Assembly: GCA_964019415.1 (NCBI GenBank) | Contig: OZ025871.1 | Span: forward strand, 3,514,129-3,578,128 | Length of the DNA: 64,000 bases | Origin: Ianthella basta | Taxonomy: Eukaryota; Porifera; Demospongiae; Verongiida; Ianthellidae | Direction of reading: 5' to 3' | Part shown: piece by piece, positions 2,339 through 59,935 of the stretch | Numbering within the stretch: position 1 is the stretch's first letter | Layout of the letters: every line of letters starts with the position of its first letter | Program-made: the position numbers and the translations under genes | Notes under the pieces: generated by a model | The model's database searches: none | Told to the model about the DNA's origin: nothing | The model's input: only the letters and a program-made list of their open reading frames with translations

Positions 2339-2602
2339 CAGCTACAGCTGACACTGCAGCCCTCCTGCACGGCAACCGACAGTCAATGTACCTCGACTGT
2401 GGTTTGCATAATGGGGAAGTGACCTGGTACCATAATAGCACAGAGTTAAGGGAAATTGACACACCTGGATCTACACAATACCTGGGTGTGAAACGGCACA
2501 AGCTTCGAATCACATTCCCAACTCCTCAGGCTGCCGGCTTGTACCAGTGCAAGGATAGCAATGGAAGGGTACTGAAAGAATACTCTGGAGTCACAGTCTA
2601 TG
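2339..2602 (+). other. Gene A exon: first Ig-like domain
   Basis: A phase-1 to phase-1 exon of 264 nt between a TTCAG acceptor and a GTGAGC donor. It encodes the Ig core: Cys in LDC, Trp in VTWYH and the AGLYQC motif of strand F. The gene B counterpart (16720-16983) is the same length, with four amino-acid changes and one silent change by my count. Near identity extends into the intron on both sides, so this segment was duplicated or converted recently. Confidence 0.85.
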
Positions 2603-5600
2603 GTGAGCCCTGTAGGCCATGGTCCCAATTAGTCAATCCCTCATGATGCATCAGGATACAGTATGTTCAGCATGTGTTTCTACAACTATTAATACAGCTG
2701 CAGTACCCATACCCATACTGACCCTGGCACTCTTCAACTAGCTAGTGTTGGCTTTTATTGTCCCAAGTATATAGCACTGGTTGAAATGGCCTGACTAGCT
2801 ACACTCTGCTGCCTCCAACCAGTTCCTCTTCAAGAGGTCTAGCTGACTAGGCTAGATTGAACCTTCTGATACTGTATACTGTATGTAGAGTTGTGAACAG
2901 CCTAGTACACAGATACCACAAGTTCATGAGAGAAGGAGCACACTGGTGTCAAGGTTCACTAGTGCAGCCATAGACTCCACAGAAGGTAGCCATAGAAGTG
3001 TTCACTAGTGCCTTGGGGCTATCCATACTGCTTCACTTGTAACATACGTAGCTAAGGTGAGAGTCTGGGCCTCTCCCATTTGTGACAGAAGGCACCCACG
3101 CACAGCTGAAACTGAAAGTGCTGTTTAGGGTTTCTGAACAGTGGGCAGTTTATACTGTTATTGGAAATTGCAGTTACTGCTTTTGACAACTTTCAAACTT
3201 TAGGCGTCAAGCAATGCCGCTTATTGCTAACGTACATATGTGCATATACTGTGCCTCTGTGAGCAGTTGGGCTTAATGTACTCATATGCAAGCATGGTCT
3301 GCATTGTCTGTACCATTCTCTGAGCTTGACAGCTGTATGTTATACACCAGTACTGGCCGGCAGTAGGACTAGTACGATATCAAGTACAGAATACTACGTA
3401 CAGTGCGACAGCTCTTTAGTGCAATGGAAACACGGTGGCACCTGGTCTGGTCTATACAAGCCTCTCTTGCTTTCAGCTAGCACAGGCCATCTGTTCCTGG
3501 CTATATGTATCACAACCTATGTACGTATGACTCATAAAGCACTCTGACCAGTTTTGCATTATAAAGAACACTAGTTCTATTATTGTGTAGCTGGGTTAGA
3601 TTACGTGTTGCACACCATTGCAGCACAATTGTACTTTTCTTTATTTATCCAATTTTGCCCTGTGTAGGTAATCTTTTGCCAGATAATTGCAGAGGTTCCT
3701 CCACACCGTGTATTGATGTTACTGAGGTGGTTGTGGTGGATCTTCCCCCTGAGCAGTGGCGGCGATACAGGATATCTCTCTCCTACCGCCACAGCCCAAC
3801 TGGGTACTACCCACTGGTGAGTGCAAACCCATGAGCTCCCTACCACTATTCACATTCACACAAACACATGCACCAGCATGCACACACAGCAATGAGCATA
3901 CACTGTGGTAACACTGTGAATTATAAGAGGACTACGTAGGATTGTAAAGATTCTAAGGATTTCAGAATTGCTTGTGTTAGTTTAAGTCTCATTCACCTTA
4001 ATAGACTTGTACTAACTTATGAGCTGAAGCTTTCCAGGAAGAATTCAATCAGTGGGTGCAGGACATTTTAATGAAAAGAGCCTTCATCAACTGATTACAA
4101 AGGCCCCTGCAGCAGAATGGCCTGTGCCATTGAGTGATTGTTTCTTGAAATGCTTCAACTCAAATGTTAGTACAGATGTGTTTGTGCATGTTGGTTGTTC
4201 ACACCAGGCCCTGGGTACTGGAGTCAAAGTGAGATGTTGTGTCTATTGTATGGCTGGTGGCAATGAACTGCAACAGCATCATCATTCTCTTTTCAGTTGT
4301 GTAACACTAGAAGCATATTTGTAGCTCTTCTTACTGTCTGTCCCAATGCTTCTTATGTATGTATGCTTGACAACAATATAACAGAATGCATGTGCGTATG
4401 TGTGTATGACCAATGCTGTACAGCAGACTGCATGTGTAATGTTTCCTACTTCACCTCTCTCCTCTCATTTTGTGCTTGCCAGGAGACTCCCCACTATCCT
4501 GTACACTGGATTGTTCAAGCAGATAATTTTGATAGTTATCTAGCTTGCAGTAGACGTTTCAATAACCCGTGTATCTTTGCCTTGTGTGATAAAGGTCGCT
4601 GTAGGACATCTAGCTATGTTGCAGCTGGGGCAGGTCTAAGTGTGACAGGAGAGTTTGGGCAAGAGGTGGAGGTTGACCTCACTAAGCTTGCTCCAGGCGA
4701 CACCAATGGTATGGTGGAGGTGCTGTATCAAGTGAACCTGCCATACAGGAGAGATGCTGTAGGCAAAAGGAATCTCGTTGTACTGAAGAAGTATCGATTC
4801 AACTTCCGAGATTTTGTCTATAACTGTAAGTATTTTTGCAAAGATAGTGTTTCCATTATTTACATGCACAACCTTTAACACATTACCCTGTATTCTTATT
4901 TGTAATGTTGTTTAAGTGAGGCTCTTGTAATCCTGTTCTTTTGCATGTGCTCTCTTTACAGTTAAGGTGTGCCCAGTGAACTGTAGCAGTGCCCCTTGTA
5001 ATGTGACGGTCAATGAAGGTGATAATGTCACTGTATGCAGTGAGATGGCCCCAAGCATTGCAGGGAGGCCCATGCCTATCCAGTCAACAAAATGGGTGTT
5101 CAGTGGAGCAGGGGTTAAAGAGGAGATGATGTCACAATGCAAGGGAGAATCAAAGTGCTGTGAAGAAACAGGGTCAGTGGCATTTTGTTGGCTACTCATG
5201 GTTAGGGTTAGGGTTTAGTAGATAATAGTAAACTTGTGTCACTGCTGTCAATGTAAGCCACTGTGAGGGTTACTTTATTGTACCTGGGACCACACCCCAT
5301 TAGTACTGCATGTTTGTACTAGTTTTTAGTAGATACACATGTTTATTTGGCAGAACACTGGTATGACAACAGTGGTCCCGTGCTTATTGTTTATTTTCTT
5401 GTTGGTGCACTTTACATCTTAACTGGTGAATAAAGGCAGCTGATCGAAATTGATCCTTTTGGCAACACCATGAACTCTATAACTGAACTGGCCATTCAAT
5501 AAGTTGAACATCACTACCATTACCGTTTCTCCTCTCAGGTGCTCCAACCGCAGTAGTGTCAGTGGAGAGTGGGGCAGGTGTTTCTCTCTTACCAATGTGT

Positions 5601-8600
5601 CCATGGCTGACAGTGGCCGTTTGCTTAGCTTCCAGGTGCGGTCCACCCGAGACAACAAGGTGACCACTGTCAACTATACTCTACACGTCACACCTGGCAA
5701 TTGGCATGTCACACCTGCCGTTTGGGGTGAGCCACTAACATGTTAATTGTGTTGTTTCATTGTTGTGCTTGATTGTGTTGTGTGTCTAATGTGCATATGT
5801 GCTTCCAATGCAATGGGTTTGCACGTGACTGGGTATGCCTGACATTGGCCACGACTGGGTGACATATTGCATCGCATTGTTAACCAAGGAGTGGCTAGGC
5901 ATAGCTAACAAATTTCATGACAGCTTCATCTGTCATGTAGAATTCTTATCATTGCATTCAGTCCTTTAATTTGCGTAGTTTTATTAATTATTGCTTGGTG
6001 GCATGTCATTATCATAATATACTTCATTTCTATGCTAGCAGATCATTGGTTATATCATGCAAGCATCACATTCACAGAGATCAATGTACTCTCTAGCTGA
6101 GCCTGCACCACACAGAAGTGCCGTCACATTCCCATTTGCCTTTTATGATAGATGTGATGTCTGTTCTACAGTATGTGTTTGGTTGTAAGTTGTAGCCTGT
6201 TCTTGTTCCCTTAAAACTGCAAATTTTAGCTGCAACTAAATTTAGTGCTTTGAAATGTTTAGGATTTAGTGGGTACTAATTTAGCAATTTTCAAGTTTTG
6301 TCGTATACATTTTTTGCATAAAACCTGTTCCTGTTAAAATTTGTAGTCTTAACATACGTATGTACAGTAGCTTTACTGTGCAGTTAAAAGGAATACTGTG
6401 TGCATGTTCAAAATAAATATGTCTTCTACATGGCATATTTCTGAGGGATGAGCATTGCTACTGACAAACAGTGCATGTGCCATCACGAGTCTCCATAGCA
6501 TGTATGTATGTGTATGAGGGTAGTACAGTAACTGTGCACAGCTCTTTGGCAGAGGATCTAGTTACTACAGAGTAGAGTGGCCGAGCTGTGTGGTGCAACA
6601 GACACATGAAATTGAAAGCCACAGCTCAAAGCAGCCTTGCAATGGGTGGCGTCATGCAGTGCACTGTCTCTCATTCAACCTTTGACTGTTCCATGTGTTA
6701 TTCCAGGCCATGTGCCATCCTTCTTCCTTGGACCATCTTCTGCTGTTAGCAGCAATGCCATCACTACAATTGGGGGCCGGTGCTGCATATTGCCTATACT
6801 GAAAGCCAATCTACGATACAAGGATATGTCTTCATGACTATACGTCCAATCTATGCATGGTGCCGAATCATCTTCATAGAGGTATGTGATCATAGCAAAT
6901 GTATGCTGGACTCCACCTGACACCAACCAAATCCAATCTGGACCTGAAGTTGCCTTGTGGATGAGTTGGTATGCTTGTGTTCTGCTTTCTGTATACTTCT
7001 ACATACAGAACCTCTCAATATGCACAAAGTCCTTGCTTACCAGATCAAGAGCATTCTGGGAAACAGCTCCATTCCAGCCCCTTTTGTTGTCACCATTCGT
7101 CTGGCATTTGACTTCTTGGTGTATCAGGGAGGCCTGGCAGACTCTGGCATGGTAGCCCAAGGGAGCAACAGTGGAGCTGGTTTCAAAGCCATTAGCTCAT
7201 ACAGTAGTTTAGAATGGCTTTTGGGGCAGTATTGGCAAGTGAGAATTGCACCCCATTGGAGGAAGGGAAGTGCTATTCAATTCTCGTATGTGCAGCGGGA
7301 ATCAGTCCGCTATCGTCTCACCCATCCTGAGACAATCAGGGAGTATCACCCTGGAGGAGCCACTGTTACAACTAATAGCAGCAGTGTTCTTGTGTTCCAG
7401 TTTAAAAAGATGGATGGTCATGGATTGGAACAGTGGGCAACGATTTTAAATATGTGATATTTAGAGTGACATAGGCAGTTAAGCTATTTAGAAGTAAAAT
7501 CAGGCAACGAAGTAGGCACAGATTGACTAATACTCTTCATCCACGGTTTGGCAGTTAAGGTTTTCATTACTCTACAATTGTTACTGTTAATGGTTTCAAC
7601 TGTGTATTAAAGGATCATCAGTGTTATGAAGTATATCATGTTTAAAGCATTGACAAGTTCTGTCTGTGTACGTACAGTACATGCTCACATACAGCGGTTG
7701 TGATGTAGGTAGTGGTGTCATTCACAATACATGTACATATATACAGTAGGTAGGTTGGAACATGTGATAGGCATGTCAGAACAGTACAACATAATAAATG
7801 CATTGCAGTGCACTTAGTCTTCAGGATGCGTACGTGTGTACGAATGTGGTGTTCATTATGGAAACCAATTTCATATGTTATACAGTTACGTAAGTGCAAT
7901 TTCACTAAAACTTTCAATGTGTTGGCCTCAATATGTAGCAGGAAGTCACGTAGTTAGTGGGCTGTTTGTCTTCAACTCCCCCACTTTGTGGTGCATGACC
8001 TGCATGTATTGTAGGTTGCACCATTTCAGCTGCTTCAACCGCAGTATTTCCTCCCTTCACCTCGGTGAACTCAATTTGAGCGAATTCTGAAAGCCACTAA
8101 GGGTCTTGGTTTACTTTTATTTGGGTTTCAAGTTTCAGTTCAGAGCTCAGTTATTGCAACACATATGCACATTTCCTTGCAAGGTGTTGTAGCCTAGGCA
8201 ACCTGTTGGTTGCAAGGGACTGACTTGAATAGCATGGTACACTAATTTACAGTTCTCTACTGTTTGAACAATGACATACCATGCAGGGGTTCTGTGGAAT
8301 TGCTGTAGAGTGTCATATTCTCCTCGAATTTAACAGTCCTCAAATGTAAAATTATTGAAATAAATTTGCATGCGTGAAATGCCTCCAGGATCTCCCCTAA
8401 TTTCAGTTCGATGTATGGATTGAGCTGAATACTGTGCCTGTCGAAAATAGTCCTTCAACAATCTGAAACTTGAAATCCGCTATTTTGCAGCATCTGCAAC
8501 TTACATATTATGTGTATTCCTGTCTATAGTAGCATGTTACTATGTACGTAGGTGGAAGTGAGTCTCAGGCTCATGTTGAGGTGATCAAGTGTATAGAGAG

Positions 8601-9761
8601 AAAGGGTGCTTTTTTGCATTATCATGAGCTATATGACAAGGACTGCACCACATGAGCCATGACAAAGACTGCAGCACATCATTGATCCCTTCCACTCTCT
8701 TACCCACTGATTTTCTCTTGCAGAAGACATTAAATTTGTGATGATTATTATTGCTGCTTCAGTCGGAGGAGGTATTTTGGTGCTATTTCTTGCAAATGTC
8801 TCAATCTTTCTCTGCTGTTGCTGCCGCAAATGCAGGTACATACTATACACCACCTTTGACAATGTTCCTTAGTAGTACAGTTTAGAGAAGGGTTTCATGT
8901 ACTCCTTGTAGTGTTTGTACTGTATGTGTAATGTTTAAATGTAGCCAGTACCATTTCATAGCAATTGCTTGCTGAAACTGCTATGACTTGAGTGAATGTG
9001 TGCTATATTTAATTCATAGTATTCCCCCTGGTATCATAATCTATAATTCTCATTACTACAGTATGTAGCTGAAGAAGTGCTAACAACTACAACCCCATAG
9101 GGCAGGAAAGCGAGGGAATATTTGCATGTAACCGTGACCTACTGTATGCTATTTGTTGAGTGGTTCAGTGGCTGAGATGGTAGCTGGCGTAGGCCCCAAG
9201 TTTGATTCCTGGCTATGTGGCATATTCCTCACTCTTTCCTGTCCTATGGAGCTGTACTTGACAACATCTCTTCAATATGTGCAGTCAGCTCAAGAAGCAA
9301 CCCTGCACAAATAGAATAATTATACTGTAGTTGTTCTGTAACTAAATTGATGCATGTGGATGCTGTGGTCACCTGTCATTGTGTTTCTGTCTCTTGTGAA
9401 CAGGAAAAGCGAGCACAATAGATGTGAGCCGATGCATCGTGAGCTACCTCCAGTTCCACCGCCAGTGCCACCACGCAGAGATTTTATGAGACAAACAATG
9501 TCACCATATGAATCTTCATACATTGCCATAACTGATCTTGAGCCCCATGAGGTTGCTGCCAACGACCAAACTGTGAGCCACAACCAGGTGCGAGTGAATG
9601 GAAGAGATGAAAGAAGTCAGTCCTTTTATGAAGAGCTGCCTCCACACACTGAAGCAAGCATGCTTTCAGTTCCTCCCCAAGCAGAAAGGTCGTCCAGCAC
9701 GCCTGTACTGTACTCCCCACCTGATGTAGGAGTAGACGGTTTGTCTCGTTCGGCAAGATAG
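2339..9761 (+). CDS. Gene A: Ig-type single-pass receptor, 5' end missing
   Basis: Exons: 2339-2602, 3668-3816, 4483-4825, 4962-5172, 5539-5726, 8724-8835, 9404-9761. Phases match at every junction and give 540 residues to the TAG at 9759-9761. Residues 1-88 are an Ig-like domain (LDC, VTWYH, AGLYQC). Residues 89-252 are an unrecognised Cys-containing domain. Residues 253-385 are a second Ig-like domain (VTVC, TKWVF, DSGRLLSF). About 390-415 is a membrane segment ending in CCCCRKCR. The tail has PPVPPPVPPRR, matching the SH3 ligand PxxPxR, plus ITIM-like SSYIAI and SFYEEL. No enzyme domain is present. The initiator and signal peptide were not found. The tandem paralogue is gene B; relative to B, the tail ends early at a TAG. 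Role as a surface recognition receptor is inferred. I do not recognise the family by name. Confidence 0.85.
5203..5218 (+). repeat. Short interstitial telomere-like repeat
   Basis: Two and a half TTAGGG units lie just after the donor of the 4962-5172 exon of gene A. Too short to mean much; possibly a chance match or an end-healing scar. Confidence 0.5.
6957..7457 (+). other. Unrecognised 166-codon open frame in gene A intron
   Basis: This open frame lies in the long intron (5727-8723) between the second Ig exon and the membrane exon of gene A. Upstream, 6700-6950 also reads as fragments of open sequence interrupted by stops. I recognise no domain. The matching intron of gene B lacks it. It may be an old insertion of coding origin (processed copy or transposon piece) or chance. 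It is not bounded by convincing splice sites in gene A phase. Confidence 0.25.
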
Positions 9762-9977
9762 TCAAACATATCACAATGCTTTGTGGCATCACATCTTCCA
9801 AACCCCTTGCGACCTCCTTCAAGCTTCTCCTCACCTTCAATAGAAGTCACTTCACACCAGTCCAACGTCTTGCCACCTTCTGATAATGTCAATCTGCATT
9901 CTTCAGCTGTAGTACCTCCACTTCCAACTATTCATCATCATGTTGGGTCGCCAGAGGGTAGTTACTGTACTGATTAA
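9762..9977 (+). pseudogene. Open extension past the gene A stop, homologous to gene B tail
   Basis: After the TAG at 9759-9761 the same frame stays open for 71 codons to a TAA at 9975-9977. The first half matches the gene B tail (SNISQ; then S-F/I-SSP, TS-QSN, LP--DN in the same order). Gene B has a Cys codon (TGT) where A has TAG. The later part (HSSAVVPPLP and onward) has no match in B. The final codons and the TAA fall inside the terminal repeat of the element at 9963-10904. It is either a lost C-terminus or a readthrough extension; I see no known readthrough context. Confidence 0.7.
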
Positions 9978-10904
9978 AAATAGCTAACCATAAAATCGCA
10001 TACAGCTCGCAGATACTGTGCGCGCACGGAATTCACTCGTACGAGTAAGAAATATACTCGTACGAGTGATGAATGTACTCGAAAGTTAACACATTTTAAG
10101 CATTAATTCTATATTCATTCGAACGTGCGAAATCGTCTTTACCTGTGAAATCGTGTCCAAAGAGAAGACGTTGTCTTGTATACCGAACGAAATGGCAGTG
10201 AAGTGGTAGGAATTGAAGGATGTACACAGTCACGCTGGGAAGACAAACCATGTGAACGTGAAGCAGGTTATTGGACAGCTCGCGGAGATCGCGGTCGGAG
10301 CAGAAGTTGTCGTGAGGTTTAGTGCCAGCGATACCTCGGCGCAGTGGCTGGTTTGCTAGACTGGGACCCTCCTAAGAGCCAACAAAGTGGAAGCAGCAGA
10401 GCAGGTTAGCTCGTATCCCCGTATAATCCCCGTTACGCAACGTGACAATATAATGTTTAATATAGCTAAAATGTCTTCCATACGATTCCTCACTTTCCTC
10501 TTCTGCTCTTGCCTCCTCAAGAGAAAGACACCTTGTGGCCGGTTCCCGATTTCTGCTGCCTCTCTCAGCGGGGAGAGTCCTGGCGATGCGTGAGATACCT
10601 TGCGTCCACGAACTAACATTTCACTGCCATGAATAACCGGATAAAGGGTGAGCATGTCTTCTTTCTTCTGTTAAAAGGCCCGTCGCTCTCTAAGATCACT
10701 CCCGACGTATGATTTTTGCTCAAAGAGCAGTCGTTCGTTAACGCCTATGGTTAACACGTCGGCCATTTTTACTCGTACGAGTGACATTTCACTCGTACGA
10801 GTGAGATTTTCACTCGCACGAGTAGGATTTCACTCGCACGAGTACGATTTCACGCTAGATTCACCTGCGTGTTGTCTGGCTAAGTATTTTTAATCGCTAC
10901 TGTA
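9963..10904. mobile_element. Non-autonomous Tc1/mariner-like element
   Basis: The ends match as inverted repeats: TACTGTACTGATTAAAAATA on the left, and TACAGTAGCGATTAAAAATA read from the right end. TA flanks and the CAGT start suggest Tc1/mariner. Subterminal 12-bp perfect palindromes ACTCGTACGAGT occur at 10035-10046, 10056-10067, 10771-10782 and 10791-10802, with ACTCGCACGAGT variants at 10812 and 10832. The interior (10150-10660) is unusually CpG-rich and partly open but shows no transposase. It abuts the 3' end of gene A. Confidence 0.7.
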
Positions 10905-13592: not shown

Positions 13593-16500
13593 GTGAGTGA
13601 ACTGGCTTGTCTGTGCTTGTATTACCACTTGTTCATCAATACAAGCGCAATGTTGTAGTACAGCACACTGTTGTACAACGAAGCCTTGCTGGATACCGAG
13701 AAGGATAATGATCATTTTTGTGCAAGGACTGCTACAAGGAACTGAAATCCTTGTCAAAGCGAGAACTTGAGCTGATGCGAAGCAAAGAAGAGTTGAAAGA
13801 GAAAACGAGGAAGGCACAATGATGTATTCTTCACTAGAATGAAAAGATTCTGTCCCGTTGGATAGACGTGCAGCTTTAGTCCCCCTTCTGTCACTAATCT
13901 GTGACTCCATAAGGGAAATCAGAGGTGATATGATGAGCACCTTCAAGCTTCCCAGGCGTATGTTTCTTTGGCGATTGATTCAAAGCGGCGTCAGTTCAAT
14001 TATCAAACTCTTCCTGAATCCATTTGGGAGATTAATAAACATGTCACTGCTAGACAAATATGTAAGTGCGTTTCTTGTTGCCGAGGATGAAGACTGAAAC
14101 AATCCTAACCAAGGAACTGTAAAGCTGCACGGACAATGTCACTGAAGCTATTGGCACCTGCCGATAGCTTCAGTGTACCGTACACTATACTACAGTATAC
14201 AGTACACTAGTGTATAGTACACTAACCGCAAAGTCATTCTTTCTACCCCTATTCGGGGTAGTACAATTCTGTTGGTCAGATGTTGAGCAATGTCAACAAC
14301 TGGTGCTGGACCCTCCTTCCCTTCACTCCCTTTGGGCGCTTACAGATTTAACAGTTAGGAGGGTCCAGCTGGCTAGGCTATGTTGTATGCTGGCTGCAGC
14401 TGGTGACTGCAGCATGCCAGTGACTAAATCAGTTAGCATCTACTTGCAATTTCCCTTTGTTCATTCCACCTATCGTTAAGTCTTAGTGTGCTACTGCAAC
14501 TAGACAGTCTAAAGCAGATGCATGGTTTTTTCATTGCACATGTGCTCTTGACTCTGCTTATGCTCCTCAAGCTCGGTACTATGCCACAGTGAGGTTGTCA
14601 CTGAGTTGTGTTTTCTTTTTGAAAATAGAGTTGGTTAATGTCCTATCATCCCTAACTCTTCCTTCATATTGCAATGTGTGTATTACTCTCATTGATACAT
14701 CATACATACTGTACGCATATGAATTTTCTGTAATTGTGGACTACGTAGTGCTTTGGGTAGGTGTGGTGTGGATGTATTGGAGACAATGTCTGTGGACTTT
14801 ACCTCCAATGTTATACATGCTAGTTTTGCAACTCTGCATTCCGTGCATGCAATCTGATGTACCGTATTTGTCCGTATAGTAGCTGGGCTCAATTAGAGGC
14901 CCGGGCTCGATTGGAGGCCCAGGCTAAAATAGAAGCCAGGGATCTAAGCAGTGATTGCCGGATCTCAGGTAGAGGCCGGGTTCAAATTGACGCCCCAGGT
15001 CCGGAATCCACACACTGGCACTCTTCATTATCAGAGGTGCATGCTTTTAAGTGCGAATCAAATGCAGTGCAACAAGTGGTGACTGATTAGACTCTCCACT
15101 GCAGTAGTGATGTCCAAGAGAAAGTGCGCTGCGTGCATCTTACTGCAGCTAAAGGTATGAATCAAATGCAGAAGAGCCACAAAAGAATCCTCTGTGAGGC
15201 GACTTCTGGGAATGCACGCCTTCTACAAAGGACTCAGCGCTTGCAGATCTCAACAGCAGCCATGTGTTATCACAGATTTTATATAGGAAACATGGCTAGG
15301 TATCTGTTCATTTTGTACAGATTTTAATATAGGCCAGGCTCAACAGAGGCTGGGTCAAAACCTCTTGAAGTATAGTAAATAGAGACCTTTACCTCTATTC
15401 GGTCAAATATGGTATTATGCCCCAAACAGCCATGGGTGAATTTTGTAGACAGTATCAAAATTGCACTTTCCCTCGTTTCAGTTCCAGAGTTGGCTGGATG
15501 TACCATAAATCTTCTAAAAAATCATGAACTTTATATACTTTTCATTTCTAAAGTTTTGAAGTTTAGGAGGAAATATATTCATTTTCATTCAAGTCTTGTG
15601 AAAATTAGAGCCTCTTGCAAAATTGGAGGTGCTCTTCGCTGCCATTTCTGGAAAGCTTCATGAGTATAATGGCCACCACTGGTGCTTTCCTCCTCACTGT
15701 GCTGTGCATTATTCACAGGAATCATGTCTACAAGGAAGTTTTGAGCCACCATATTGCAGAGGATTTTGTATGGGTTCCTAAGGAATGGAACTTCCTAGAC
15801 AGGAAAGCCATAGCTGTCACCTGCACTGCTTGTAGCAGCTAGCCAGTCGGACATTTCCAAAGGCAACACTGCTTTGTTATGTAGGTACGTTTACCGCTGT
15901 TGGGCACCATTTCTCAAGGTGTATCATGCGGTACCCGAGTAACCATTGCTGAAAATTAGAGGTCTACATGAATTTTGGAGTCGCCAAGGATTCGAAACTT
16001 TAGAACGTTTCAAGGCAACACTGTGGAAAGTTTGCAAAAATTAGATTTTCAAATTTTTAGAAGGTTTACGATATTACAGAATTGTGTGTGCATGCAATAC
16101 CTACATGTATGGCTGCACTCACCTTCTGACTGGGATGTATGCACTGGGACCATCCACATGTGCATGTGCTATCGTAGTGGCTTCTGTTTTGAGTGGTGTG
16201 GTCATAAGGGATTGCTTGGCCTAGCCCTTCAGAAGCCACTGTACCTCTGTGGTTGCTGAGTTGACAGCAGTAAATTTTGAAAAGGAACTGGTGGGGAGGA
16301 GAGGATGTGGGGTGGTTTGAGCTAGCCTCATGTCTATAAGCCTGGCACATTGCCATGTATGGAATGGTTGCAATTGGATTACAGATATACTAACACATAG
16401 CAGCTCATCAGCCAACAAGATTGCAGATTGTCCTATATTCATTTATAACTTTCACTTGCTGCCCCGTGCACAACCTCAGTGGGTGATGTGCTCTGCTATG

Positions 16501-19500
16501 TGAAGTCATGTACATAAGATATCTGATTGGGTTGCACTGTGAACTGCAACCTGTTCAGTGTGCCAGACTAATTTTCCCCATAATTAGACCTGGGTATGTG
16601 AGGCTAGGTTTGGTAAATGGTATAACAGTAGGAACAAGATGAAAGGGGTTGGCATGTGCATTGTTAGCTAGTTCTTGCTGATCTAGTGACCTTGTCACTC
16701 CTCCTCCTCTTCTCTTCAGCAGCTACAGCTGACACTGCAGCCCTCCTGCACGGCAACCGACAGTCAATGTACCTCGACTGTGGTTTGCATAATGGGGAAG
16801 TGACCTGGTACCATAATAGCACAGAGTTGATGGAAATTGACACACCTGGATCTACACAATACCATGGTGTGAGACGGCACAAGCTTCGAATCACATTCCC
16901 AACTCCTCAGGCTGCCGGCTTGTACCAGTGCAAGGATAGCAGTGGAAGGGTACTGAAAGAATACTCTGGAGTCACAGTCTATGGTGAGCCCTGTAGGCCA
17001 TGGTCCCAATTAGTCAATCTTTGTGCATCAGCATTCAGTATGTTCAATGTGTCTCCCAACAACTGAATACAGCTGAAGAAAGGGTACAACATGAATGGGT
17101 GAAGCTAAGCACTTGCACAAGTTGCACTGATTACTGCAGCTACTCCAACCTGCATACACATATACCTGTGTTAATCCTGTCACTACCACTTGCTGTTGAT
17201 GCCTTTCTTGGTATCAAATAGTACTGATTAAAATGGACTAGCTAGCACTTTCCTCTGTGTCTAACCAGTGGTGAAGGGTTTAGCTAACTGGATTCTTCGA
17301 TGCATACCAGTGATCTGGTACTACAATGGGTGGTGACTCATCACCATTGTTATGCAGGCTTGTGTATGGTTTTCAAACAGAATGTAAAGTGTCAATGCAC
17401 TCCACAACCTCATGGTAGATGGGGAGGGGAAGGGAGGAGGGGAGAGAGGGCACCAAAGTGTCTAGGTTTGGTATGCAGCCATACAGTAGGGCAGTGCTTT
17501 GGGAACTACCTGTTCTGCTTCGCTGGTGGTTTTATATGATAGTTGGGGCCTATCCCATGATGGGGGGATTCTGGAGCTATAGTGTAAGGCTTTCATACAG
17601 AATATGCAGTGTCAAACCACAAAAGGGACTTTACCTTAGGTGTATGTGCATACACTTGCGTTAGCAGTTGGAATTACTTTACTTTACAGGTCATCTACAT
17701 ATTCCTGTGTTGGTTATGCTAATGTCCCCTGTCACATTGCGTCACATGGCTTATGACTCAGTGAGTGTCATTCCAAACTGGCCTACTGCAAGGCAGTTGG
17801 AACCAGTGTAACTGGTGACTCACAGGCCTCAACAGTCTTATGCAGGCTTGTTTTGAAGATTGTACCCAGCTCTTTTACAGGGCTCAGTTCGTGACAAAGG
17901 AAATGTTACCTGTTTCATTGTATCTTTCATGCTAACTATTCTTTCGATTCTGACTGAATATGATACATCTCACAATGTATCTCATCATCAAGTATTAGTG
18001 TTGGTGCACTGTGTTTACTGACTATTGCTGCAGCTCTTGTAAGTGCTACCAGTGGGTCTATATTGTGTATGACGTCTATTTTACCCTTTTGTAGGTAAAC
18101 AGTCTGTGTGTAATGATATTGTGACACATGTTATGTTCCTTTTTTCTCCCTTTTCCTGCTACACAGGTGTGCTTGTGCCAGACAATTGTACCGGTGAAAA
18201 AACTACACCCTGCATTGATGTTACTGAGGTGGTTGTGGTGGATCTTCCCCCTGAGCAGTGGCGGCGATACAGGATATCTCTCTCCTACCACCACAGCCCA
18301 ACTGGGTACTACCCACTGGTGAGTGCACAGCCATGAGGAAACTCTTACACACTAACATTGCACTCATAGACTTGTCTTGACTTGTCTTGAGTGAATTTGC
18401 AGAAATAATAGCCAGCTCACAACTGGATCAGATGTTTCCGCTAGTCTCTCATGCCAGACCCCCTGCAAAGGGTCTGGTATTACATTGCATACACCAACTT
18501 GTGTCCAGGATGAGATCCTGTCCTGGCCAATCAGATTCGCTGTTTGCTATATGACGTCATCCTAAAATTGGAGATTTGGCATTGACTCGCTTGAAGGATA
18601 TCATAGGACGCACTGCGACTTCACTCAAGTACGCTCTGAAAACAGAGCAAGAACAAACCATACAAGCAAAATAATGCAAATTCGTACGCTCCATACTTCA
18701 CTCGCCACACTACCGCACTGCGGACAACATTGTGCAAGAGATAAGCACATATATGCAATTACTACATTTGTTTGGCACAAGTCGGCTAATGCATACTACC
18801 AGACCCTTCCGCATGTGGAGGGGGTTCTGGCAAGCAAGACTACAGTTTAGCAGGCTTTGGCTGCCTTCATTAGTGACTAGTGGACACTTCACACAATGCA
18901 CAAGAATGGCTCTGATGTATGCATACAAATAGCATTCAAACGATGAGTTTGTCATGTGAGGCAAGGAAATTCAAACACTGTGAGTTAAAATTCAAAATGT
19001 AACATTAGAATGAACATTAACATTAAAATAGAAAGGTATGATCTGCGGCATCTAGCGTGCTAAATGGACGTCAACAAACATACATTGGACAGACAGGCAT
19101 ATCCCTTGACCACTGTTTACGTGAGCACTGCTGTGCTGGAGCAGGAGGAGATGTGGTAAATGTTTTCTCGTCCATCCACAAAGTTAATCTATCCCAGGCC
19201 TCAGTGATCGATGTACACCCTCACACTCAGATATGCTGCAAGCTAGAGTTGTGGCTTATTCAGCATTGTCAGGCCACCCTCAACAGAGGGAAGGGCACCA
19301 TGTCAGAACTCTACACTGCGCTATTGGGCTGTTGGACTGACCACCTTGACTGTTATAGGTACTCCTCCCTTCACCATTTTCTTGTTTGCATTCATTCTAT
19401 TGTTAAATCTCTCTGTGCTATAATATCCCACCATAATCCTGGTTTCCTGTACACTGAAACTGACACATGAACATGTCATTGTCTGGCCACCATTTTTGTT

Positions 19501-22500
19501 TATTCACCTGTGCTTGTGTCAATTATTTGCTGATGAAGGCAGTCAAAGTTGCTGAAACATCTGATCCAGTTGTGATTTGGCTGTATTTCTGCACATTTGT
19601 TTATGACATATTATCTTTCACTTCTCATCCTCTCTTTCTGTGCTTGCCAGGAGACTCCCCACTATCCTGTACACTGGATTGTTCAAGCAGATAATTTTGA
19701 TGATTATCAAGCTTGCGGTAGACGTTTCAATAACCCGTGTAAATTTGCCTGGTGTGATAAAGGTCGCTGTAGGACATCTAGCTTTGTTGCACATGAGGCA
19801 GGTCTAAATGTGACAGGAGAGTTTGGGCAAGAGGTGGAGGTTGACCTCACTAAGCTTGCTCCAGGCGACACCAATGGTATGGTGGAGGTGCTGTATCAAG
19901 TGAACCTGCCATACAGGAGAGATGCTGTAGGCAAAAGGAATCTCGTTGTACTGAAGAAGTATCGATTCAACTTTCAAGATTTTGTCTATAACTGTAAGTA
20001 TTTTCGCAAAGATAGTGTTTCCATTATTTACATGCACAACCTTTAACACATTACCCTGTATTCTTATTTGTGATGTTGTTTAAGTGAGGCTCTTGTAATC
20101 CTGTTCTTTTGCATGTGCTCTCTTTACAGTTGAGGTGTGGCCAATGAACTGTAGCAGTGACCCTTGTAATGTGACAGTCAATGAAGGTGATGATGTCACT
20201 GTATGCAGTGAGATGGCCCCAAGCATTGCAGGGAGGCCCATGCCTATCCAGTCAACAAAATGGATGTTCATGGAAGCAGGGGGAAATGAGGAGATGATGG
20301 CACAGTGCCAGGGAGAAGTGATGTGCTGTGAAGCAGAAGGGTCAGTAGTCTTCTACTACTCCACACACAACACTGCTTGAGCAGGCATTAATTGTTACAT
20401 ATCCAAACCACTGACAGCACAGACCAGTGCTATGTAGAATTACGTTATTATGTCAGGGGATTCATGGTTGTTGCATTGTGTTGATGCTGCACCCTGCTTG
20501 AAACCTAGTGGCAATGTTCCACTGGATAGATAAGTACTGTACCTTATTGCCCAATGGCACTGTACATCAGTGGAGCCACCACTTCGGTATTTTGATACTG
20601 GAGTGCAGTTTCACCAGTACCGTATACGCTTGAACTTTCGCAGACCATTCTAACAAGTGTATAGGCCTAGATGTTGTGGTACACAACAGATTGAGGGAGC
20701 CTTCTTTCTTTTGTACTTCTGTGTGATGCAAACCATTTCCCTTTGGAGAATGTCCTGTGGCACAGGATCATTCGGAAACAAGGCATTCTTTTCATCCTTC
20801 CACTTGTTGAACAGCCTTAAACACTTCTGAGTGTCGTCGGCCATATTCTCCCCTATAAAATCCCTGTTTGCACTGCTCAAAGACATCACCTTTATTGTCA
20901 AACTTAAAAGGGTTCTTCACAGAGGGCAGAGAATCCTTCACATTCAGTTGGAAGTGCTTGGCCATGATTCATGTATGTAATACCTGTCATTATCCTTGGT
21001 GCTATCTGTATATATCTGCAATGGACAAGCTCAGATGACTTTGGTAAAGTGAAGTTTCATTGTCGTGTACCATACATAGGTGACTGAGTGAAATTGATTT
21101 GTTTGTTGTGATGCATTACCACGATTCATTGGGATGGGCAAACGTAACCATGTTAAGGATCACTATCATTTTCCTCTCAGGTGCTCCAACCGTAGTAGTG
21201 TCAGTGGAGAGTGGGGCCGGTGTTTCTCACTTACCAATGTGTCCATGACTGACAGTGGCCGTTTGCTTAGCTTCCAGGTGCGGTCCACCCAAGACAACAA
21301 GGTGACCACTGTCAACTACACTCTGCACGTCACACCGGCTGTTGATGGTGAGCCACTAACATGTTGTGCTGTTGTGTTTAGTTGTGTAATGACAATTGTG
21401 TGCTAGGGTGTTTAGTGCAAGCACGTATATGTACATATGGGTGTACGTGTGTTTATATGTTATACTAGGCGACATTGAGGGTGAGCCTGAGTGAGAGTTA
21501 CATACATACATTAATTGTGCCTGACAGTTGGAAGATGGGTTGAGGTGAATAGAAGGGTTTGGAGGTGTAGATGGGCGTGATGGGATAAATGTATGTACAA
21601 TATTGTACATACAGTAGCTTCATGTGCATTTACTGTAAAAGCACATTGCTGTGCACACAGTGTAGCGCTTATAGACACCTCCCGCCAGAATGGACTTCCT
21701 GCCAGAACTAAATAACGGCCTACAAAGCAGAGTGCACAATAGACAATAGCATTTGCAGTCTATGCTTATACACGCACTTGCCCCTCAGGCGCTTTGCGAG
21801 GGGCAAGTGCATGTATAAGCCATAGTCGGTGAAATGCTATTATCTACTATTACATACATGGCTTCATGTGCACTCAAAAACACATTGCTGTGCACACAGT
21901 GTAGCGCTTCTAGACACAGGCATACGTACGTATATACAGTACAAACAGTGAAACACGCCGCAAGACTATGCAGGACAGCCGTACATAGACAAGTTGTGTG
22001 ACATTTTGTACAATCTGAGAAATACATTTGGTGAAGTTCAAGCATTTATGGGTATACACGGTTCCATACATATTGTCAAAGAGCCACCTGTGAGTGTGCA
22101 TGAGGATGGAGGATGATGAGAGCAAACATGCAGTGTGCAATGTCCCTCTCCAAGGGATGCCTTTGAACAGTGACCGATTGTCTTCATTGCTTTGAAATCT
22201 CAGGCAAACTAGAGTGAATGATGGAATCAATACATCATTGGAACAGTTTGCACTGTTAGAGGTTTACCTACTAGATGGAGACATGTTCACTAGACACCCT
22301 GTTCTGTTCTGTTCACTAGACCCAGCATGCCTACCATGTATCCATAGCTATGGTCTCTCTCTGTGCAAATTAGAAGAAGCTCCAGTTTTTTGTTGATGAA
22401 ACCGCTCGATTCTTGTGTTCTAATCAGTGTCACGTCTTCACATCAACATTTTCATCACACAACATCTGAACTGTGTTTTAGACCGTTGGCTAGTGCAACT

Positions 22501-25500
22501 TCTGAGAACTTATGCCTTCTACACGGGGCTCAGCGCTTGGATATCTCTACAGCAGCCATGTATTATCACAGATTTTATATAGTAAACATAGCTAGGTATC
22601 AGTTCATTTGTGTTGTACAGATGTATTGCAGAATTGTGTGTGCATGCAATACCTACATGTATGGCTGCACTCACCTTCTGACTGGGATGTATGCACTGGG
22701 ACCATCCACATGTGCATGTGCTATCGTAGTGGCTTCTGTTTTGAGCGGTGTGGTCATAAGGGATTGCTTCGCCTAGCCCTTCAGAAGCCACTGTACCTCT
22801 GTGGTTGCTGCGTTGGCAGCAGTAAATTTTGAAAAGGAACTGGTGGGGAGGAGAGGATGTGGGGTGGTTTGAGCTAGCCTCATGTCTATAAGCCTGGCAT
22901 GTTGCCATGTATGGAATGGTTGCAATTGGATTACAGATATACTAACACATAGCAGCAAAAATGCAGTGTGCAATGTCCATCTCCAAGTGATGCCTTTGAA
23001 CAGTGACCAATTGTCTTAACCATCTTTAAACCATTGGCTAGTGCATATGAAGCTGCAGTGACTTTCCTATCCACTCAGGCCTTTACAAACAGCATTACCT
23101 TTTTGACGTATGTATTATTTTTAACTTGAAATCCATTGTTTTGTACTGTAGTTGCTACATACTTACGTACACATGTGGCCTTGTCTATAGTAGTCTGTAA
23201 GCTGATGGATACGCCACTAAGACTCACCTTTAAGGTTATCAAGTGTGCATCTTTTATGTAATGTTTGTCGACTCAGCACTGAAGGCATTGCTTCCTCCAT
23301 TCCATCCTCTTGCACTATTACAGATTCCATTGACTCTGTGCTGATTATTGCTGCTTCAGTTGGAGGAGGTGCTTTAATGCTGTTTCTTGCAGCCTGTTTC
23401 ATCCTTGTCTGCTGTTGCTGCCGCAGATGCAGGTGCGCACTTTGAGAATGATTTCATGCACTCACATAAGTGTAATGTTTGAGTTTGCCAAGTACAATTT
23501 GCTAACATTACAACATTTCTATAATGCCTGAATATAATGTGGTAGAGGCCCATTGCTGCATTTGTGCAATACAGGCATGTCGCGAGCAGGTACAGTACAA
23601 AGCAGAAGCGATCGATCAAACAAATCATACACTCTTTCTGCCTCATATTAGGCCTTTGGCAGCTGCATGCAAAACTGAATCTTTGCTTGCAATCAATATG
23701 CCTTATACTCAAATAGTTTGATTTAGCGCTCTGTAAAGGAGTACTAGTAGTAGTTTCTGGTAATTGATGAATCCAATGAATCTTCTTTAAGAATGTGGCA
23801 CATGGTCACTGAATACGAGAAAACAAATTTGACTCCCAAACCACACCTTTTATAGCAACAATAAATGCCTTATGAAGTATTCAACCCAACTACACTCATC
23901 TGCATTTAGCTGAAAGAAGCAAAACATTATGTATAAGGTATAGGTATAGGTACGTATAATTATAATTATGTATAATTATAGGTATGCAAAAAGTTATGGC
24001 CAGAAGGTTACTGAACTTAGGCACAGAAGAAGCTAAGAAGAATTACAGCGAGGCAAAGATGGTGGTGAGAAGAGCTAAGAATGAGGCATGGGTTCAGTCT
24101 GGATAAGAGCTTGAGAAGGATGTGAGTGCCAACCCACGGAGATTTTAGGCCAGAGTCAATGGTAGAAGGACAGTATGAACTGCATTCATGATGAGAAAGC
24201 CAAGTGTTGGAAGATGAGGCAGATGTTATTGAGAGATGGAAGGAACATTTTAAAGGGCAGTTTGGGGACAAGGAAGGGTCTGGCCAGGACATGCTATATA
24301 GTGAGGTAGTGCAGATGATGACCGAGAGATAATGTTGGAGGTGGTGAGAAGAGGAGTAAAGAGTTAAAGTTGAGGAAGGCACCCGGTGTGTGGAGTGTAG
24401 CCAGAGGTGCTAAACGCTGGAGGAGAAGTGGCGGTGAAATGGTTGGTATTGTTGTTCAATATGGTATGGAGAGTAGGCATAGCGACTGGAGAAAAGCGCG
24501 GATCATCCCCATCTATAAGAAGGTAGCAGGTTAGAATGCTCGAATTACAGAGGGACAAGCCTACTGAGTGTGGTTGGTAAGGTGTATGCAAGAGTGCTAA
24601 ATGACAGGGTGAAGTTGATAACAGCAGAGAAAGTAATGAATGAGCAAGGGAGCTAGGGATTAGGGCAGGTAGGGGCTGTAATGATCATATCTTTGCAGTG
24701 AGGCAGATTGTGGAGAAGACCATTGCAAAAGACAAGTTGGTGTACTTGGTATTTGTGGATTTGGACATAATGGAGAGTGCTGGAAGAATATGGTGTTGAG
24801 GGAACATTATCAGACAGCACTGTAGTATTGGCTATGTAGGGATGGCAGTAGTTGTTTGTATGCTGTAATACAAACAAAGAGTAGCCCTATTGCAATTTAG
24901 GGCTGAGAACTGGCAAAGACGGCTACCCAAGAGGAAGCATCTGTTGCATACAACGTAGGACTAACCTTTGAAGTGAAAATGTGTGCTCCGGCAGAAAACG
25001 ACCTCGACATTTTCCCTGTTTCATCTTATTCTTATTCTTCTTATCAGACAGCACAGCAATGGTGTCTATATAAGGATGGTGTGGTTGTCTGTATTCTGTA
25101 TTACAAATGAAATGTGGCGTTATTACCATTTAGGGTTAAAAACTGTCGAAAAAGGCTACCCATGAGGAAGTTTCGGATGCATACTACTTACGTAGGACTA
25201 ACCTTACTTTCAATGTGAAGTGTGCGCAGAAAACGACTTCAACATTTTCTGTGTTTCGTCTAATTATTATTATCAGACAACACTGCGTGCTGTCTATGTA
25301 GGGATGGTGGTGGTTGTTTGTATGCTGTAATACAAACAAAAAGTAATGCTACTATCATATAAGACTGAAAACTGGCGATAAAGGCTATATACCCATGAGG
25401 AAGTGTTGATTGTACACTACGCAGGGCTAACCTTACTTCCAAGTGAACATGCGTGCTCCTGCAGAAAACGCCCTCAACATTTTCCGTGTTTCTTCTTCTT

Positions 25501-27598
25501 TTTCTTCTTCTTCTTTTGAAAAGACCTGAGAGGCTATGTAGATCAATCATATCCGTAATCGTGGACTGAACAAAAGATTTTCGACATTTCAGAAGCATAC
25601 AGCTACCTTCATCAGGGGATAATAACAAGTGGAGCACTCATGCATCTATAGATGATAGTGACAATGGATGATGTGACTACTGTACGTTTTTGACAGGAGA
25701 CATCAGATGATGTGTAATGAATAATGTCAACAATAACACATGCAGTTTCTAACGAGAGAATGAGTGAGTGTAAGTTGTTGAGTCAGTTTAGCAGTGCTGT
25801 GTACTCAGTAGACAGGTAGACAGTGACCCCTCTCACGGTTTATTGTGTTGGGGTGGCGCTGAATGTGCCAGCTCTCCAATAGACATCACGTGGTTACCAA
25901 GGGGTGTGTGTCAATCACTTCCGCCTTGGACAGGTCCACTAGGTGGACCACACGTGTTCAGCTAGAGCAGATGCAGCAACATCCCATTTCTGAGTGCATG
26001 TTGGTGTTCAGTCAAACGGTGCTTGAGGGTTCGGCCATACTGTCCAACATACACCTTGGGGCACTCAGAGCAGGGGACTTTGTAGACCACACCTGTGCGC
26101 TGGTCCCTGGGTACCAGGTCCTTTGGGTGTACTAGCTGGTGCCTGAGGGTGCTGTGTGGGCGAAAGGCTACCCTGATATCCAGAGGTCCAAGGATTCTTC
26201 TGATTGTTCAGATAGACTGTTGAGTGACTGAGTGTTGAGCGTGTGGCAGAGGAGAAGAGGATTGTCAATGCACTGAAGGAGAATGGGTAACCACTGAGCT
26301 TCATTACACATCCTTTGTTCATTTTGGCTAGTGTCCACGATTACGGATATGATCTTTTTCTTCTTCTTCTTCATCTTCTTTTTCTCTGACAGCAGTAGCG
26401 CACAAACCAAAGGGACCAGAAGAATACTTCTAGCATGATATTGCATCCATTTTTCCTGGCTGTGTTCCTATGTAGGTTTAGCTTATGCTGCGGTGACTCC
26501 CAACGTGGTGCATGGCCAAAGGGGGCAGACGCCATTTTCGGTTGATGTAATTAAACTGGATGAAACAGGCAGGACTTTGCTATTATGAGCAGCTCTCCGT
26601 GGACTCCTTCCCGTTGCCCTGTTAACTGGCGAAGTGGTGCTCTTCGCATTGCTCTACGCTAAGTCAAAGTAGTTGGCCAATAGTTCAATTGCTTAGCAAC
26701 GTCATCATGTGGTCGTTTGAAGTTATGTACATAGATAGCCTTGGCCAAAATTAGCTTGCGCACCATTTGAAGGACATTCATAGTCATGCATTTTCCCACC
26801 ATTTTTAATTTCTGCCAGTTGGCTTCCAGTCGCCGTTTCTGTGTTCTCTTCGGTGTCTTAGCGGGGAACCCAGGTACGTACTTAGCTAGCAGAAACCTTG
26901 AACCCCAGGGATACCAAATAAGGTCCGATAGCAGCATCAACGTCCATCCAAGGATGTGGGACTATAAGGTGCTATAATAAGCTAGATGTAGTCAATTTTG
27001 TACTAAGACTGTGTTTTGGGGCATGTGTATGCTGTACTTCACCTGTCATTGTGTGTTCTCTCTTGTTTGCAGGCACAGCAAGCATAAGAATGTTGAGTTG
27101 ATGCGTCCTGTACCACCTCCTTTAGTGCCACCACGTTCAAGGTTGATGGGACCACCTGTTGAGCCTATATACATTAGCATAGTGGATGTTGAGCCCCGTG
27201 AGGTTGCTAACAACGACCAAACTGTGAGCCACAACCAGGTGCGAGTGAATGGAAGAGATGAAAGAAGTCAGTCCTTTCATGAAGAGCTGCCTTCACACAC
27301 TGGAGCAAGCATGCTCTCAGTTCCTCCCCAAGCAGAAAGGTGGTCCAGCACGCCTGTACTGTACTCCCCACCAGATGTAGTAGTAGACGGTTTGTCTCGT
27401 TCGGCAAGATGTTCAAACATATCACAAGGCTTTTTAGGATTGCCCCCTTCAAGTGGGGCACATCTTGTAACCTGCGGTAGGGGCTACACCATGCTGCTTC
27501 CTTCCAGCATCTCCTCACCTCCAGTAGGAATCACTTCAGACCAGTCTAACATCCTCCCACTCCCTGATAATGCAACTACTCTGCCAGACCACAGATGA
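13171..27598 (+). CDS. Gene B: Ig-type single-pass receptor, tandem paralogue of A
   Basis: Exons: 13171-13195, 13542-13592, 16720-16983, 18167-18318, 19651-19993, 20130-20340, 21181-21347, 23324-23432, 27073-27598. Total 1848 nt, 615 residues plus TGA, all phases matching. Residues 1-25 form a signal peptide (core WIAVAVLVVCAAA). Then come Ig 1 (to 113), an unrecognised domain (114-278), a second Ig-like domain (279-404), a membrane segment with a CCCCRRCR end (405-441) and a 175-residue tail. The tail has PPPLVPPR (SH3 ligand PxxPxR) and IYISI. The second tyrosine site of gene A, SFYEEL, is SFHEEL here and so lacks its tyrosine. Introns hold Penelope-like, LINE and DNA-element remnants absent from A. 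The two leader exons are less certain than the rest. Function as a recognition receptor is inferred. Confidence 0.85.
14860..15414. mobile_element. MITE-like element, TA-flanked inverted repeats
   Basis: The left end TACCGTATTTGTCCGTATAG matches TACCATATTTGACCGAATAG read from the right end. Both carry nearby GGCCxGGCTC blocks. No transposase is visible. It lies in the second intron of gene B. An interior segment (15213-15325) recurs at 22495-22620 beside another repeat copy. Superfamily is likely Tc1/mariner from the TA ends; this is inference. Confidence 0.65.
16076..16403 (+). repeat. 328-bp repeat, copy 2
   Basis: Nearly identical to 22628-22956 from CAGAATTGTGTGTGCATGC to ACTAACACATAGCAGC, with only scattered differences. 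Both strands are open for 60-96 codons in both copies, but the few changes do not clearly respect either frame. It sits just upstream of the first Ig exon of gene B. Nature unknown: a dispersed repeat, or a block duplicated within the gene. Confidence 0.75.
18451..18834. mobile_element. MITE nested in the Penelope-like remnant
   Basis: The left end GCCAGACCCCC...AAGGGTCTGGTA matches the complement of the right end (CCAGACCCTT...GGGGGTTCTGGC), giving imperfect inverted repeats of about 35 bp with an internal hairpin in each end. No coding capacity. Confidence 0.65.
19057..19341 (+). pseudogene. GIY-YIG endonuclease piece of a Penelope-like element
   Basis: The frame reads TYIGQTGISLDHCLREH, then ASVIDVHPH and a stretch ending LNRGKG. 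This is the order seen in the GIY-YIG endonuclease of Penelope-like elements (YIGxTGRSLxxRxxEH, then the ASVIDxHPH region). The frame stays open to 19470 but the element lacks its reverse transcriptase, so this is a dead fragment. No host role is suggested. Confidence 0.75.
20618..20950 (-). mobile_element. DNA element remnant related to 53525-54306
   Basis: It begins TACCGTATACGCTTGAACTT, close to the terminal repeat of the element at 53525 (TACCGTATGCGCTTTAATTT). It lies in the gene B intron 20341-21180, which is 840 bp against 366 bp in gene A. The minus strand is open over 20901-20650 with a charged segment (LFNKWKDEKNALF) that I cannot assign firmly. The right end is not clear. Confidence 0.5.
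22628..22956 (+). repeat. 328-bp repeat, copy 3
   Basis: Matches 16076-16403 almost base for base. It lies in the intron before the membrane exon of gene B (23324). Directly upstream, 22495-22620 matches 15213-15325 from inside the MITE at 14860. The two repeat blocks are therefore adjacent here but about 750 bp apart upstream of the Ig exon. Confidence 0.75.
24000..24800 (+). pseudogene. Decayed LINE-type reverse transcriptase fragment
   Basis: Across shifting frames the plus strand reads as non-LTR reverse transcriptase sequence: WRKARIIPIYKK, then a YRGISLLSVVGKVYARVLN-like stretch, then a segment ending LVYLVFVDL, with stops and frame breaks between. It lies in the last intron of gene B (23433-27072). 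The element is dead. I cannot place the clade (CR1, RTE or jockey-like) by eye. Confidence 0.75.
24807..25500 (+). repeat. Three diverged tandem copies of a ~230-bp unit
   Basis: Units start at about 24807, 25041 and 25270 with TTATCAGACA-CAC. Each contains GGATGGT/C, TGTATxCTGTAxTACAAA, a TACCCA-GAGGAAG block, TAGGACTAACCTT and CAGAAAACG-C---ACATTTTC, ending in a T/C-rich run. They follow directly on the LINE fragment and may be its 3' end or a satellite seed. Confidence 0.7.
25545..26353 (-). mobile_element. Penelope-like retroelement remnant, minus strand
   Basis: Inverted ends share CATATCCGTAATCGTGGAC (25547-25565) and its complement (26333-26351). On the minus strand, about 26160-25970, the frame reads GVVYKVPCSECPKVYVG then RTLKHRLTEHQHALRNG, matching the cysteine-containing linker and GIY-YIG core of Penelope-like elements. 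Stops follow. Nearer the 3' end (25620-25580) the minus strand has CTGATGA...CTGAAA. Truncated, no reverse transcriptase core seen. It lies in the last intron of gene B. Confidence 0.75.
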
Positions 27599-30012: not shown

Positions 30013-30702
<690 letters not shown>

Positions 30703-58340: not shown

Positions 58341-58499
58341 GACTGCTGCACTGCATGTGTGGATATTGCCAGAGTGGCACATACAGTACATAGTAATCAC
58401 AGACATGGAATATAAATGAGCAGAAACTGCATAAAACCTTAACACAACACACATGTACAGACCGGAGAAGCTTGTCCGGCTAGCTAGGTTGCATTACTG

Positions 58500-58646
58500 G
58501 TAGTTCTCCTGGAAGTCACAAGCCAAAGACTTGATTTCTTTACCAAACGTTTTGGCATATGATTGCAGCCAACCACCACGCACTCTGTAAGCCATTACCT
58601 CTGAGAAGGCTGCAGTGCTTTGGCTAGTGACTTCCAAGAGAACTAC
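58500..58646. repeat. Foldback element upstream of gene D
   Basis: GTAGTTCTCCTGGAAGTCAC at the left and the complement of GTGACTTCCAAGAGAACTAC at the right form inverted ends with CAAGCCAAAG / TAGCCAAAG continuing inward. The interior has AAACGTTTTGGCA, like the other palindromes. Confidence 0.7.
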
Positions 58647-59844: not shown

Positions 59845-59935
59845 CGAGCTGTTCCGACAACTCGTAGTTGTGCACGGACGATCGAACAGCAACACTGAGC
59901 TCGGTACGTGTCGTTCTGCGGCCCCACCCAGCTAC
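59845..59935 (-). promoter_or_regulatory. Candidate untranslated first exon and promoter of gene D
   Basis: A CpG-rich island covers about 59490-59940. On the minus strand it contains ACAGCTCG followed by a GTAAGC donor at 59844. An acceptor (CACATGCAG) lies at 58351, ten bases before the gene D ATG. This fits a noncoding first exon spliced over 1.5 kb. The transcription start is not defined. Confidence 0.35.

Follow-up and report, generated by a model that had tools for sequence, protein, structure and literature searches.

Two neighbouring genes in a 64,000-nucleotide stretch of the Ianthella basta genome (assembly GCA_964019415.1, contig OZ025871.1, positions 3,514,129 to 3,578,128 of the forward strand; hereafter the window, numbered from its first letter) look like single-pass membrane receptors. 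With a probability of roughly 60%, we read them as an old receptor pair that has been homogenised piecemeal by gene conversion and in which a loop encoded by exon 3 is under diversifying selection for ligand contact. A and B would be Ig-type receptors from an old tandem duplication, each crossing the membrane once. Parts of their exons would have been kept alike, piece by piece, by short interlocus conversion tracts of ~130-700 bp, with drift separating the long introns, the membrane-proximal tail and the greater part of the transmembrane exon. The youngest tract would run from 4460 to about 5095-5149. Within it, four conserved cysteines frame a patch of exon 3 that would keep gaining amino-acid differences, both between A and B and among A-type sequences, under diversifying selection on a putative ligand-contact loop that would act through new replacements and through selection against homogenisation.

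Genes A (2339-9761) and B (16722-27598) both lie on the plus strand, on one contig of the 209-Mb genome. GT-AG splicing connected seven modelled exons per copy, with a frame open through all of them in A and B alike, and yielded 540 codons in A (the longest of 4 models) and 589 codons in B (the longest of 2 models), in each case without the first exon; splice modelling did not place an upstream signal-peptide exon for either gene. The exons of A as modelled are exon 1 (2339-2602, with the splice model starting at 2341), exon 2 (3668-3816), exon 3 (4483-4825), exon 4 (4962-5172), exon 5 (5539-5726), the transmembrane exon (8724-8835) and the cytoplasmic exon 7 (9404-9761). Their counterparts in B, taken from the splice model and for exons 1 and 3 to 5 also from the codon comparison with A, are 16722-16983 (modelled in part), 18167-18318, 19651-19993, 20130-20340, 21181-21347, 23324-23432 (transmembrane) and 27073-27598 (cytoplasmic). 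The insertion of 21 nt in exon 5 of A is a diverged tandem duplication (5684-5704 and 5705-5725, identical at 17 of 21 positions) at the 3' end of the exon; it encodes HVTPGNW/HVTPAVW in the juxtamembrane stalk of A and is absent from B.

Exon 1 appears to be Ig-like, and A and B would accordingly be Ig-type receptors. This exon matched Pfam Ig_3 at 7e-05 in A and 2e-04 in B, both below the curated cut-off. A structure of the A exon, predicted with low confidence (pLDDT 59), retrieved mostly named Ig-domain proteins among the 50 Foldseek matches listed, with a best E of 0.017 and none at 0.001. Exon 3 forms an ectodomain segment that had no Pfam match at E 0.01, and its predicted structure (mean pLDDT 41) was too poor to place sites on a surface. 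Two weak PDB sequence matches titled calcium-binding protein (E 0.014 and 0.072) were taken as chance. Searches of the sponge's own genome with A exon 3, A exons 4-5, the A tail, A exons 1-2, B exon 3, the related protein P0009 and the exon 3-4 DNA matched only A and B at the sensitivity of the tool, and thus returned no third paralogue as a conversion donor; two further matches, both to the tail query, were at chance level (E 1.3 and 2.7).

Identity between A and B was bimodal, with short near-identical tracts set in a diverged background. Blastn and a two-state segmentation placed tracts of 95-98% identity at A 2280-2636, 3703-3835, 4460-5149, 5530-5694 and 9538-9782; the segmentation, which used hand-set parameters and an alignment anchored at exons (some anchors being the ends of blastn matches), added a weak 48-bp stretch at 87.5% identity. 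In exon 2, the 3' part from ~3703 was homogenised with B and the 5' part was not, with similarity dropping off in the alignment at the 5' end of the exon. Exon 7 switched from diverged to homogenised within the exon, from 94/130 identical positions before 9552 to 219/231 in 9552-9782 (p 6e-9). The transmembrane exon was mostly unhomogenised (pS 0.25 and pN 0.17 over 30 aligned codons). Exon 4 was homogenised in its 5' part, and its 3' end (5096-5172) stood at the level of the old divergence; segmentation put the end of the tract at 5149, whereas by rate 5096-5172 behaves as unconverted.

Intron 3 of A (4826-4961, plus strand) lies within the youngest tract and is identical to B at 134 of 136 positions, the two differences that had been counted there falling at 4837 and 4904. 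The other introns were far less alike. Once exon edges were removed, introns 1 and 5 were still homologous (z 9.8 and 5.0), their 65% identity being hardly higher than that of shuffled sequence (59% and 64%), and introns 2 and 4 had no clear homology (z 1.8 and 1.4); with the exon edges included, z was 13.0, 5.6, 2.7 and 6.3 for introns 1, 2, 4 and 5, respectively. A sensitive local search recovered short matches by exon edges in introns 1, 5 and 6, and one more in intron 6, and gave no match in introns 2 and 4.

Diverged introns combined with near-identical exon tracts indicate that the tandem duplication is an old one and make copying of exon parts between the loci the natural explanation. 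The copies are, within tracts, too alike for the age of the duplication, and tract boundaries are sharp; we infer gene conversion as the homogenising agent. Silent rates differed among tracts, with ~5/238 neutral sites changed in the exon 3 - exon 4 tract compared with 5/36 in exon 5 (p = 0.005), which points to separate conversion events. According to a review of Caenorhabditis paralogues (PMC3966223), faster intron divergence may impede conversion, and such an effect would fit the exon-centred tracts of A and B.

A second, independent candidate conversion tract was observed elsewhere in the window, in a pair of fibronectin-III exons on the minus strand (48943-49146 and 63331-63534). These exons, 14 kb apart, are identical at 199 of 204 bp and have abruptly diverged flanks (33/59 and 27/47), with one boundary inside the exon. 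SRCR and fibronectin-III receptor ORFs occupy both strands (36746-45373, plus; 48187-63615, minus); four tested ORFs matched SRCR or fn3 in Pfam and the remaining ORFs were judged by eye. The exon at 43961-45370 had seven relatives in the protein database, 57-99% identical. Upstream of B, a 333-bp stretch (16072-16404) recurs at 22624-22956, in intron 5 of B, with 97.9% identity, and a diverged copy (~70%) sits upstream of A in the corresponding position (~1696-1884); this stretch may belong to the old duplication and have been copied later, or it may be a mobile element. Just past the last coding exon of A, palindromic ACTCGTACGAGT repeats, seen by eye, bracket ~0.8 kb (10030-10860) that resemble a small mobile element. 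The window also contains a long GT-rich repeat (30008-30701) and a minisatellite-like array (61067-61484), which are open in several frames.

The original prediction had concerned exons 3 and 4, where an excess of amino-acid changes between A and B was taken as the mark of diversifying selection. A codon-by-codon recount returned the same totals, 26 replaced and 3 silent codons, divided into 10 and 1 in exon 3 and 16 and 2 in exon 4. These exons have ~436 nonsynonymous and ~116 synonymous sites, that is, about four fifths are nonsynonymous, and an excess of replacements is therefore expected under neutrality. Expressed as dN/dS, 26:3 amounts to 1.6-2.1, not significantly greater than 1 (p 0.11-0.28): NG86 gave pN 0.072 and pS 0.048 (Fisher p = 0.28), and codon-model maximum likelihood gave an omega of 2.07 (p = 0.11). 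Per exon, omega was 4.0 in exon 3 and 1.50 in exon 4, and neutrality was not rejected in either (p 0.11 and 0.46). All formal selection tests compared two sequences, A and B.

Omega was 1.12 in exon 1 and 1.32 in the homogenised part of exon 7, so a high share of replacements is seen beyond exons 3 and 4 as well. Simulations under neutrality gave three or fewer silent codons with P 0.009-0.046 when hits were independent and P 0.275 when the clustering of changes was kept, and a scan-corrected test for a shortage of silent codons, taking the best window over exons 1-5, gave P = 0.41. Exons did differ from one another, with 26:3 in exons 3 and 4 against 2:5 in exon 5 (p 0.0026) and against 13:10 in exons 1, 2, 5 and 7 pooled (p 0.0095). 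The reversal in exon 5, 6 silent to 2 replaced, was borne out: its 51 aligned codons contain 2 replaced and 5 silent, the sixth silent change being CCT/CCG at the edge of the insertion in the alignment. This exon, in an older conversion tract (5530-5694), is under purifying selection (omega 0.13, p 0.011), and its contrast with exons 3 and 4 arises in part because its tract differs in age. The 3' end of exon 4 (5096-5172) holds 12 of the 29 changed codons, 11 of them replaced; here pN = pS = 0.22, and with the replacement rate equal to the silent rate there is no signal of selection. Gene conversion is the context missing from the original prediction, and of the diversifying selection that it proposed, the part that survives is a patch of exon 3 (4534-4641), not exons 3 and 4 jointly and not the 3' end of exon 4.

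The patch comprises exon residues 18-53 and differs between A and B at 12 of 108 bp. It is the dense cluster recognised earlier, with nine replaced codons, three changed at two bases and none silent, although the span given then (4533-4634) stopped just short of the ninth codon (4639-4641). The 12/108 differing sites compare with 5/274 in the flanks (Fisher 2.6e-4, for a window picked after looking). When 24 differences were placed at random in 4460-5095, 12 fell within 108 bp with P 0.0056; windows of 60, 150 and 200 bp gave P 0.19, 0.075 and 0.079, and merging adjacent differences as one event gave P 0.078 at 108 bp. The clustering is therefore best described as suggestive. A codon-model likelihood ratio test on the patch, chosen post hoc, gave an uncorrected p of 0.015.

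Were the patch as young as its tract, at least 11 replacements in 85 sites would have P 1.1e-6 at a rate of 2% and 0.0015 at 4.5%; were it an old relic, one silent change or fewer in 23 sites (0.5/23 observed) would have P 0.015. Replacements are too many for a young tract, and silent changes are too few for an old relic. Four cysteines (C22, C30, C35 and C40, numbered by exon residue) were invariant in 4/4 sequences. Multi-nucleotide mutation was rejected as the origin of the doublets at residues 18 and 20, for which sequential replacements suffice: Gly18 and Lys20 of P0008 join the codons of A and B in single-step paths (AGT-GGN-GAT and CTA-CAA-AAR, respectively), the codons of P0008 being deduced from its residues alone.

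Querying the protein database with exon 3 turned up two relatives, P0008 and P0009, among 15 candidates, and both were compared as protein residues. P0008 is flanked by A-type translated intron, with 17/17 residues matching on each side, and probably represents the A locus, either in a second individual or in a very close relative; the search gave no other outside A-type sequence. Three of its 114 residues depart from A (S18G, L20K and I31K), all of them at the ten of 114 sites that vary between A and B (P 5e-4), and a looser test, that the three lie within residues 18-53, gave P 0.03. P0009 is more distant (77% identical): A and B differ from each other at 10/114 residues and each differs from P0009 at 26/114. 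At the ten A/B-variable sites, P0009 agrees with A at 4, with B at 4 and with neither at 2. Used as an outgroup, it assigns changes to A at residues 18, 20, 34 and 53 and to B at 23, 31, 45 and 109, so both copies have changed; K31 is also present in P0008, meaning that site 31 either mutated on two occasions or was transferred. Within the patch, P0009 further differs at 8/27 sites where A and B agree, compared with 6/60 in the 3' half (p 0.03), an excess that would fit a tolerant loop as well. Scans of genome contigs and viral contigs showed no relative, and a full-length protein search at E <= 10 returned nothing, in part because exon-sized ORFs lie beyond its length limits.

Diversifying selection on a binding loop would be the best reading of the patch, and its main rival combines conversion with relaxed constraint: a tolerant loop would accumulate near-neutral replacements between homogenising events, with no selection for difference. 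This is a possible account, if clearly the less probable one. It would agree with an omega that is not significantly greater than 1 and lies near 1 in other tract exons, with the differences of P0009 at patch sites where A equals B, and with the relaxed constraint reported for converted Siglec-11/16 exons (PMC5701461). It accords poorly with the nine changed patch codons, among which the lack of any silent change has P 0.04-0.08 under neutrality, and with the nearby neutral rate in intron 3 (2/136), which is far under the replacement rate of the patch. The patch could instead be an island that past conversions skipped and that displays the old A/B divergence. Mosaic tracts make such islands likely, and old divergence is indeed seen in other unconverted pieces, namely exon 7 in its 5' part, exon 4 at its 3' end and the transmembrane exon; yet the silent rate of those old pieces is near 0.24 against 0.5/23 in the patch (P(<=1) 0.015), and P0008, A-type throughout its 17-residue flanks, still differs from A at patch sites. 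We consider a skipped island improbable.

Two further histories can be set aside. A recent duplication with diversifying selection on both exons and no conversion, as the original prediction implies, would suit the low silent divergence of exon 1, exon 3 and intron 3. Far too much divergence for it has, however, built up in introns 1, 2, 4 and 5, in the transmembrane exon and in exon 7 towards its 5' end, and identity switches within exons 2 and 7; the introns, the transmembrane exon and the exon-7 switch rule it out, and it is the least credible of the readings. Hardly more credible is neutral decay of one copy as a pseudogene, for which one might cite the frame of A, ending before that of B though in-frame similarity goes on. 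Both copies, however, splice through seven modelled exons with open frames and GT-AG sites, changes fall in both, and purifying selection acts on exon 5. Neither copy has the look of a pseudogene, and decay is ruled out by the exon-5 omega together with the open spliced frames.

The cytoplasmic tails of the two receptors differ. The tail of A carries two ITIM-like motifs, SSYIAI and SFYEEL (P 0.009 by shuffling), and the tail of B has none, with H replacing the tyrosine of the second motif; proline-rich PxxPxR motifs occur in both tails. The frame of A stops earlier in the tail than that of B, and in-frame similarity to B runs past the stop of A. Activating receptors follow a charged transmembrane residue rule. 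The transmembrane segment of B as modelled has no charged residue of activating type, and inspection of the modelled protein by eye found no activating feature in B. Ectodomain exons are 95-98% identical within tracts, the near-identity expected of paired receptors, with the ligand-binding part putative. An ITIM-bearing A beside an ITIM-less B hints at a paired-receptor arrangement. A fuller version is doubtful, though worth stating: a two-gene paired-receptor system in a presumably early-branching animal, ITIM-bearing A and ITIM-less B, whose ectodomains would be kept alike by conversion for the same class of ligand; the four-cysteine loop of exon 3 would be polymorphic and would diversify under selection for microbial or self/non-self ligands, and the exon-3 domain would be a new recognition module. 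Ligand contact of the patch, and any role in recognising self, non-self or pathogens, would be putative.

These results correct a common error, in that a striking replacement-to-silent count in tandem genes can be mostly a product of the surplus of nonsynonymous sites and of stretches that escaped conversion. They also single out one short patch as a candidate recognition surface, within a receptor family that yielded no named relatives in these searches. Should allele data bear out diversifying selection, this patch would be a convenient starting point for studying how receptors and ligands evolve in the lineage. Among the titles listed in a literature search on sponge receptors and gene conversion, none named the A/B receptor family; the kind of process is already known.

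Hydractinia Alr and Botryllus fuhc/fester are polymorphic recognition membrane proteins with variable ectodomains. In contrast to those systems, only two genes were found here, and they are known from sequence alone. The nearest receptor analogues are Siglec-11/16, TLR1/6 and CEACAM paralogues. Primate SIGLEC11 and SIGLEC16 are Ig-type receptors with an ectodomain homogenised by conversion and with differing signalling (PMC5701461), and A and B would resemble them in this. Their ligand binding has been measured and their signalling is opposed, whereas the modelled transmembrane segment of B lacks an activating-type charge, and part of the A/B tail is homogenised too. Mammalian TLR1 and TLR6 are likewise tandem receptors with conversion in part of the gene and the rest free to diverge, but their domains are unrelated to those of A and B, and their conversion takes in most of the TIR domain together with the transmembrane segment (PMC2077338). 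The GOT1 paralogues of Tigriopus californicus form a comparable mosaic of high and low divergence with apparently continuing conversion, although GOT1 is an enzyme rather than a receptor and was studied with population data (PMC3728101).

The nearest published pattern to the patch, by analogy, would be exon 5 of the human red and green opsins, where divergence between copies that undergo gene conversion reaches a peak (Teshima and Innan 2008, cited in the review PMC3924837); peak tests of this kind have also been applied to Drosophila duplicates (PMC2588116). The opsins are tandem genes that conversion keeps alike and whose divergence rises sharply over a short stretch with functionally different sites, a layout that A and B would share. 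The opsin peak stands against flanking introns of low divergence, whereas in A and B only intron 3 is homogenised, and the functional sites of the opsins are known, whereas the role of the A/B patch is putative.
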